In this document: positions 19,251 to 20,585 of the stretch, piece by piece
Position numbering within the stretch: position 1 is the first letter of the stretch
Layout of the letters: every line of letters begins with the position of its first letter
Program-made: the position numbers and the translations under genes
The notes under the pieces: model-generated
Seen by the model: only the letters and a program-made list of their open reading frames with translations
Database searches by the model: none
What the model was told of the DNA's origin: nothing
DNA from: Sphingomicrobium astaxanthinifaciens
GTDB lineage: Bacteria; Pseudomonadota; Alphaproteobacteria; Sphingomonadales; Sphingomonadaceae
Length of the DNA: 64,000 bases
Assembly: GCF_022865105.1 (NCBI RefSeq)
Contig: NZ_JAKNYM010000001.1
Location: 124,001-188,000 of the forward strand
Direction: 5' to 3'

Positions 19251-20411
<1,161 letters not shown>

Positions 20412-20432: not shown

Positions 20433-20585
20433 GAATCAACCATGATTCGCGGTCAAGATTCGGCGGAGAATCAGGCTTTTAAAGCACGGGGAGGTTGATC
20501 GGACTCAAGTAGAGCTCAACCACAAGATGTTGAGTCCGTCGGAATCGACGGGACTCAACCCCTTGTGGTGTGCCCTGAAAGACTC
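20433..20585. promoter_or_regulatory. Cluster of nine GANTC sites upstream of ccrM
   Basis: GANTC begins at 20433, 20444, 20457, 20468, 20502, 20532, 20542, 20552 and 20581, nine sites in 153 bases. A four-base-specific motif is expected about once per 256 bases by chance, fewer in GC-rich DNA. Four sites are embedded in GACTCAA or its complement (20502, 20530, 20552, 20581). The stretch is the whole gap between rnhB and ccrM and most likely contains the ccrM promoter, with methylation-dependent autoregulation as in Caulobacter. Confidence 0.75.
20519..20569. repeat. 51-base imperfect inverted repeat with GANTC in both arms and at its centre
   Basis: Left arm ACCACAAG-AT-GTTGAGTCC-GTCG (20519-20541) and right arm CGAC-G-GGACTCAAC-CC-CTTGTGGT (20546-20569) pair with two mismatches and one bulged G, around the 4-base centre GAAT (20542-20545). 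The central GAATC and the arm sites at 20532 and 20552 are CcrM targets. It may act as a DNA operator or as a hairpin at the end of the rnhB transcript; there is no T-run after it on either strand. Confidence 0.7.

Follow-up and report, generated by a model that had tools for sequence, protein, structure and literature searches.

Predicted NrdR boxes carrying CcrM methylation sites upstream of ccrM in Sphingomicrobium astaxanthinifaciens and other Sphingomonadaceae

At agn43 the operator of OxyR overlaps Dam sites. A Dam methylation site also lies under the operator of the repressor Fur in the sci1 cluster of E. coli (PMC3145626). NrdR, a repressor that senses dATP and ATP, has been described as specific for ribonucleotide reductase (RNR) (PMC9110341), and about three NrdR target genes were found per proteobacterial genome (PMC5343134). 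Its operators at RNR genes consist of two tandem 16-bp boxes of the type CWA-N4-TWG, placed about three helical turns apart. At the CcrM/GcrA promoters of Caulobacter, GANTC adjoins a -35-like hexamer. The region upstream of ccrM described here shares with the RNR operators a pair of boxes that is detected by a matrix built from RNR promoters, with the Caulobacter promoters the GANTC next to the hexamer and a genome encoding both GcrA and CcrM, and with the Fur operator the overlap between a methylation site and a (predicted) repressor operator. The differences from the RNR operators are the predicted target, which is a gene for a DNA methyltransferase, the CcrM sites borne by the inner box halves, and the placement of the boxes upstream of the core hexamer. 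In contrast to the Caulobacter promoters there are nine GANTC sites, most of them tied to the predicted NrdR operator and one in the YGAKTCG context. Unlike at sci1 and agn43, it is the gene of the methyltransferase that is under control, NrdR would act as the repressor, and the effect of methylation is a prediction.

The features of the locus are listed below in coordinates of the window, that is the whole 64-kb stretch of S. astaxanthinifaciens DNA that was analysed. GANTC sites are given without strand, with their offsets from the ccrM ATG counted along the minus strand and with the site count as their basis unless another one is named.

19251..20399, minus strand: ccrM, GANTC adenine methyltransferase, 382 aa (open reading frame; Pfam N6_N4_Mtase and RAMA)
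20433..20437: GANTC at -38, second core-promoter site (position kept in relatives)
20444..20448: GANTC at -49, first core-promoter site, 11 bp from the -38 site; the only one in YGAKTCG context (at 20443)
20451..20456, minus strand: TTGACC, -35-like hexamer of the putative core promoter (GGTCAA on the plus strand)
20457..20461: GANTC at -62, directly upstream of the -35-like hexamer
20468..20472: GANTC at -73
20502..20506: GANTC at -107
20520..20535, minus strand: NrdR-like box 2, reading ACTCAACATCTTGTGG in the ccrM direction (RNR-trained matrix)
20532..20536: GANTC at -137, overlapping the inner half of box 2
20542..20546: GANTC at -147, in the box spacer, 10 bp from each box site
20552..20556: GANTC at -157, in the inner half of box 1
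20553..20568, minus strand: NrdR-like box 1, reading CCACAAGGGGTTGAGT in the ccrM direction, with a spacing of 17 bp to box 2 (RNR-trained matrix)
20581..20585: GANTC at -186, upstream of box 1, overlapping the rnhB stop codon
20584..21180, minus strand: rnhB, ribonuclease HII (open reading frame; Pfam RNase_HII)

The NCBIfam CcrM model NF050803 matched the ccrM product over nearly its full length with 622.9 bits, which is under the curated cut-off of 830.

The original prediction had described nine GANTC sites in 153 bp between rnhB and ccrM, four of them in GACTCAA or its complement. All nine were located in 20433-20585, and the four recounted as those at 20502, 20532, 20552 and 20581; as a small correction, the site at 20581 reaches into the stop codon of rnhB. 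The density was also confirmed to be far beyond the background. There are 71 GANTC in the window compared with a mean of 327 in 100 shuffled versions, thus the motif is otherwise avoided. A sample of the same genome (59 stretches of 20 kb, 1.18 Mb) contained 863 sites (0.73 per kb), and the densest 153 bp in this sample held at most four. Such runner-up clusters of four sites occur at L102:2203, L104:8819, L108:894 and L288:10457. With a Poisson expectation of 0.11 per 153 bp, the probability of nine or more sites is about 5e-15; were the local rate ten times higher, it would still be about 2e-6. The suggestion that the cluster titrates CcrM was rejected, because nine sites stand against an estimated 1,640 in the genome (extrapolated from the 1.18 Mb sample).

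A CcrM match was found in all 61 genomes of the genus (in G015 by a weak match only), 30 of which provided loci for the genus comparison, and in all 119 genomes of the family. The family set excludes the genomes G111, G095, G085, G152, G164, G107 and G118; G000 and G034 belong to the set of 140 upstream regions and are absent from the set of 110 further genomes, and L076 and L077 were dropped as duplicates of L001 and L002. Counts over these related genomes are non-independent. Among the 140 Sphingomonadaceae regions, the 220 bp upstream of ccrM contained a median of 6 GANTC (range 0-11), at positions relative to the ccrM start that are similar among relatives, thus the dense cluster has been kept across the family. 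Neither finding that would have refuted the original prediction was made: the cluster recurs in relatives, and the 1.18 Mb sample showed no comparable density. Where the end of rnhB sits 542-880 bp upstream (L074, L003 and L004), the distance between the element and ccrM is unchanged. As this distance is kept to ccrM even with rnhB far off, the element belongs to ccrM, and ownership by rnhB was ruled out. These comparisons support the view that the cluster is a conserved control region of ccrM. In the genus, the layout of its distal module is approximately GAGTC-N4-GAGTC-ACACCACNAGNNNTTGAGTC-N15-GACTCAACATSTTGTGG, with the second leading site absent in S. astaxanthinifaciens. Many genera have, between about -118 and -104 of ccrM, a conserved element resembling G-GANTC-CTTTYGTTC (L122, L125, L129, L130), which is not present in S. 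astaxanthinifaciens.

Neighbouring sites in the family upstream regions are mainly 9-11, 19-20 and 29-30 bp apart. SeqA prefers phased GATC pairs, which these spacings resemble, and a SeqA-like protein binding phased hemimethylated GANTC might sequester the ccrM promoter after replication. We know of no SeqA-like protein for GANTC, and the phasing stems in part from the geometry of the NrdR box pair described below and in part from shared descent, the layout being inherited. We regard sequestration of this type as very improbable.

The proximal part of the region has the form TTGACCGC-GANTC-N6-GANTC (also given as TTGACNGC-GANTC-N6-GANTC), with the GANTC at 20433 and 20444 downstream of TTGACC, and this arrangement is conserved. 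The looser pattern TTGAC-N2..5-GANTC-N3..7-GANTC was present in 99 of the 140 family upstream regions and in many, although not all, loci of other Alphaproteobacteria. Sequence comparison thus shows a putative core promoter whose two GANTC sites are separated by one helical turn. A similar core, TTGCG-N3-GAGTC-N5..6-GATTC, running into an NrdR-like box (AGTATCTAGTGG), was seen in the RNR promoters L169, L171 and L174; in L173 the GATTC and an NrdR-like box are visible, the rest of the core being outside the view. In 39 of the 140 family regions there is a perfect DnaA box (TGTGGATAA or its complement) at most 70 bp upstream of ccrM. It lies about 30 bp before the ccrM start in L138, L140, L142, L144-L148 and others, directly after the second core GANTC in the cases displayed, and does not occur in this position in S. 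astaxanthinifaciens. These boxes agree with an earlier prediction that DnaA controls ccrM where the gene is without CtrA sites (PMC2877005).

All nine sites could form a single CcrM/GcrA array that, once methylated, brings in GcrA with sigma-70 and defines a methylation threshold for ccrM transcription, NrdR having no part in it. The genome does encode GcrA (PF07750, 129.8 bits; cut-off 26.9), the core sites are conserved well outside the family, and ccrM of Caulobacter most probably responds itself to the methylation state (PMC3973325). The YGAKTCG context was, however, found at just one of the nine sites, although this context was defined in Caulobacter, and the simple GcrA array that had been proposed for the cluster is not supported. 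The distal sites, moreover, proved to follow a second type of element.

To score this element, a symmetric matrix was derived from the RNR-promoter box pairs of 15 genus genomes, S. astaxanthinifaciens excluded; the training boxes were chosen by an NrdR consensus, and RNR promoters were taken from 30 relatives. The S. astaxanthinifaciens genome has one gene for the RNR large subunit, and its promoter carries a box pair with a 16-bp spacer. When the matrix was run over 444 kb of this genome and then over 1.25 Mb, a total that includes 6 kb shared by the window and one of the stretches, the pair upstream of ccrM ranked first with 34.7 bits and the RNR promoter second with 33.8 bits; the best place outside both promoters reached 14.4 bits in the 1.25 Mb. 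Random 300-bp windows (3,000 draws) gave a 99th percentile of 3.0 bits and a maximum of 14.4. For 350 bp the 99% null was 4.2 bits, and the null of all scores was drawn from this genome, which has 68% GC.

In 110 further family genomes, the pair upstream of ccrM was above the 99% null of 4.2 bits in 101, the scanned regions being longer than 350 bp, and reached at least 14.5 bits in 94. With 300-bp regions of the 80 family genomes added later, 72 exceeded 3.0 bits and 66 reached 14.5. Modules of at least 14.5 bits were found in 123 of the 140 family upstream regions, which is a lower bound because start codons were chosen by a script and a few are wrong (e.g. L179, L208, L218, L223 and L256); for the set of 110, wider regions were rescanned. 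Several genera have a degenerate left box. Since the requirement for 14.5 bits selects the conserved C and G of the boxes, the full conservation of these two bases in the modules is not independent evidence.

An NrdR pair was taken to have a spacing near 15-16 bp, with about three turns between the centres. The boxes upstream of ccrM are 17 bp apart here and in 104 of the 123 family modules, and 16 bp apart in the other 19. NrdR boxes often overlap the polymerase site. Those of S. astaxanthinifaciens lie 63-112 bp upstream of TTGACC, and no distal promoter overlapping the boxes was recognised by eye in the genus and family upstream regions. With a 17-bp spacer, binding has been reported at 1 nM for the Listeria, 45 nM for the E. 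coli and 21 nM for the Streptomyces protein, and at 340 nM for that of S. pneumoniae (PMC12051234); the ccrM spacing is thus in the well-bound range for NrdR of E. coli, S. coelicolor and L. monocytogenes, and not for that of S. pneumoniae. The distal part is very probably a tandem NrdR operator, binding to it being predicted.

Beyond the family, 26 loci from the 143 genomes of the class with a match were compared. In six of them (L184, L186, L187, L197 barely, L198 and L199) the pair upstream of ccrM scored above the null maximum, and L187 has GANTC at both inner box edges. These cases hint that the link between NrdR and ccrM is older than the family; the extension is weaker because the null came from a GC-rich genome. 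In Rhodobacterales-like loci, the matrix picked out single boxes with strong scores, along with pairs that scored lower (9 to 21 bits), at the 3' end of rnhB; being inside coding sequence, they were used as a hint only. The single NrdR-like boxes scored 19-25 bits and lie in or near the rnhB end in L007-L011, L013, L062-L064, L195, L202 and L205 (Rhodobacterales by name or layout). In Rhizobium-like loci the best pair upstream of ccrM had 7.7 bits.

S. astaxanthinifaciens has one nrdR gene (TIGR00244, 173.7 bits; cut-off 124.65). Its product retains D15, R17 and the RRRR motif (counting the residue before RCPFC as 1), which contact DNA in the structure of S. coelicolor NrdR (PMC9110341). In five of the 119 family genomes nrdR was not found: two genera with two genomes each, g7 (G066 and G151) and g16 (G075 and G156), and G080. 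The box pair upstream of ccrM was missing in four of the five genomes without nrdR versus 5 of 105 with the gene (Fisher 1e-4). When counted by genus, nrdR was missing in two of five genera without the pair versus 1 of 77 with it (0.009). If 14.5 bits were required, the pair was missing in four of five versus 12 of 105 genomes (0.0014; by genus 0.04). The exception is G080, a fragmented assembly of 380 contigs, in which no nrdR was detected, yet ccrM has a 30-bit pair. In G066, which is without nrdR, the RNR promoter has also no pair (-9.4 bits).

The loss of the boxes separates the two groups of GANTC sites. Nine genomes without the pair have 0-2 distal GANTC, compared with 98 others whose median is 4 (P 2e-6; L208 was left out, and in L244 the core was misplaced so that its two core sites were tallied as distal), while the core sites remain in genomes that lost the pair. 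An undivided CcrM/GcrA array does not explain why the distal sites track the NrdR boxes and vanish with them, nor does it account for the scores of the box pair, and we consider it improbable.

The predicted operator itself contains CcrM sites. Of the 246 inner box halves in the 123 family modules, 202 form part of a complete GANTC; in 89 modules this applies to both halves, as it does to the two boxes of S. astaxanthinifaciens. At RNR promoters (28 of 31 past 14.5 bits, including the S. astaxanthinifaciens one) this is true for 1 of 56 inner halves; the difference corresponds to a Fisher value of 1e-31, a statistic that ignores kinship. A further GANTC is present in the spacer of 23 of the 89 modules, four of them from close relatives of S. 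astaxanthinifaciens; the genome rate predicts about 0.7. It is always 8-11 bp from a box site, with 5 to 15 bp being possible. The excess in the inner halves, together with the spacer sites, argues that GANTC has been selected within the predicted operator.

It could be, alternatively, that the boxes are an NrdR operator on which GANTC has no effect, the inner half GAGT being just tolerated by NrdR and the sites serving CcrM, GcrA or nothing. In some relatives the inner half of RNR box 2 ends in CTC (ACTC or GCTC; L163, L154), so such a half-site is compatible with NrdR. The frequency of complete GANTC at ccrM versus RNR halves nevertheless stands against neutrality, as do the spacer sites added at 8-11 bp, since NrdR requires GANTC neither in the spacer nor in the inner halves. 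We judge this alternative to be unlikely.

The inverted repeat might also act as RNA, terminating or attenuating transcription between rnhB and ccrM. The fold of the strand is better than all 200 shuffled versions (z -4.5), but the repeat is not followed by a T-run, and covariation was barely above the shuffled expectation: in 105 modules the pairing of variable columns was near that expectation in 20 of 24 column pairs, and the modest excess in the remaining four (14, 16, 18 and 19) falls in two cases within GANTC sites. The element also stays next to ccrM in the loci where rnhB is 542-880 bp away. An RNA hairpin was therefore rejected as hardly credible.

The reading that we prefer, and think likely, is that of a composite ccrM control region made up of a core promoter, tandem NrdR boxes, and CcrM sites in the boxes and their spacer, with ccrM as a predicted NrdR target and the operator as a CcrM substrate. 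NrdR carrying ATP and dATP would bind the pair and repress ccrM while dNTPs are plentiful, and the draw-down of dNTPs by replication would release ccrM together with RNR. The methylatable adenine of the inner sites comes directly after the conserved G of the box. By our own matching of positions, this G belongs to the highly conserved pair that NrdR reads (PMC9110341). With the methylated base adjoining that G, NrdR would bind with an affinity that depends on whether the operator is fully methylated, hemimethylated or unmethylated; for an effect of methylation on NrdR binding we see slightly better than even chances. The product of ccrM would thereby feed back on its own operator, and either sign of this feedback is conceivable. 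Adenine methylation weakens protein binding at some other operators. If it weakened NrdR, full methylation would favour ccrM and the brake would have to come from the core sites; if it strengthened NrdR, the operator itself would close a negative loop. The core GANTC sites would act separately, via GcrA and sigma-70, as they do at CcrM-dependent promoters. We are evenly divided on whether the operator works with two keys, NrdR and CcrM methylation acting on the same bases, so that ccrM would fire upon low dATP combined with the right methylation state. Of the epigenetic feedback element postulated by the original prediction, the conserved control region, the presence of GcrA and the plausibility of feedback by CcrM have stood; the picture of a uniform array has not, having missed the NrdR pair.

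As far as titles and abstract openings go, none of the open papers listed in our searches reports ccrM as an NrdR target, and the main text of a reconstruction of the NrdR regulon in Proteobacteria names neither ccrM nor a methyltransferase (PMC5343134). GANTC sites in front of cell-cycle genes were tallied in an earlier comparison, which could not derive a control from the counts (PMC2877005). In Caulobacter, deletion of nrdR changes spreading in soft agar, and cells that do not replicate enter S phase later when their dNTP levels are raised (PMC12186491); dNTPs are thus known to be linked to the cell cycle there, in the text consulted not via CcrM.

In Sphingomonadaceae the two-key operator would, if true, link the epigenetic clock of the cell cycle to nucleotide supply. 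With a conserved cell-cycle methyltransferase among its targets, NrdR would have a broader role and provide a direct, testable wire from dNTP level to DNA methylation, and the methylation clock would, if this is confirmed, be tied to the supply of DNA precursors.
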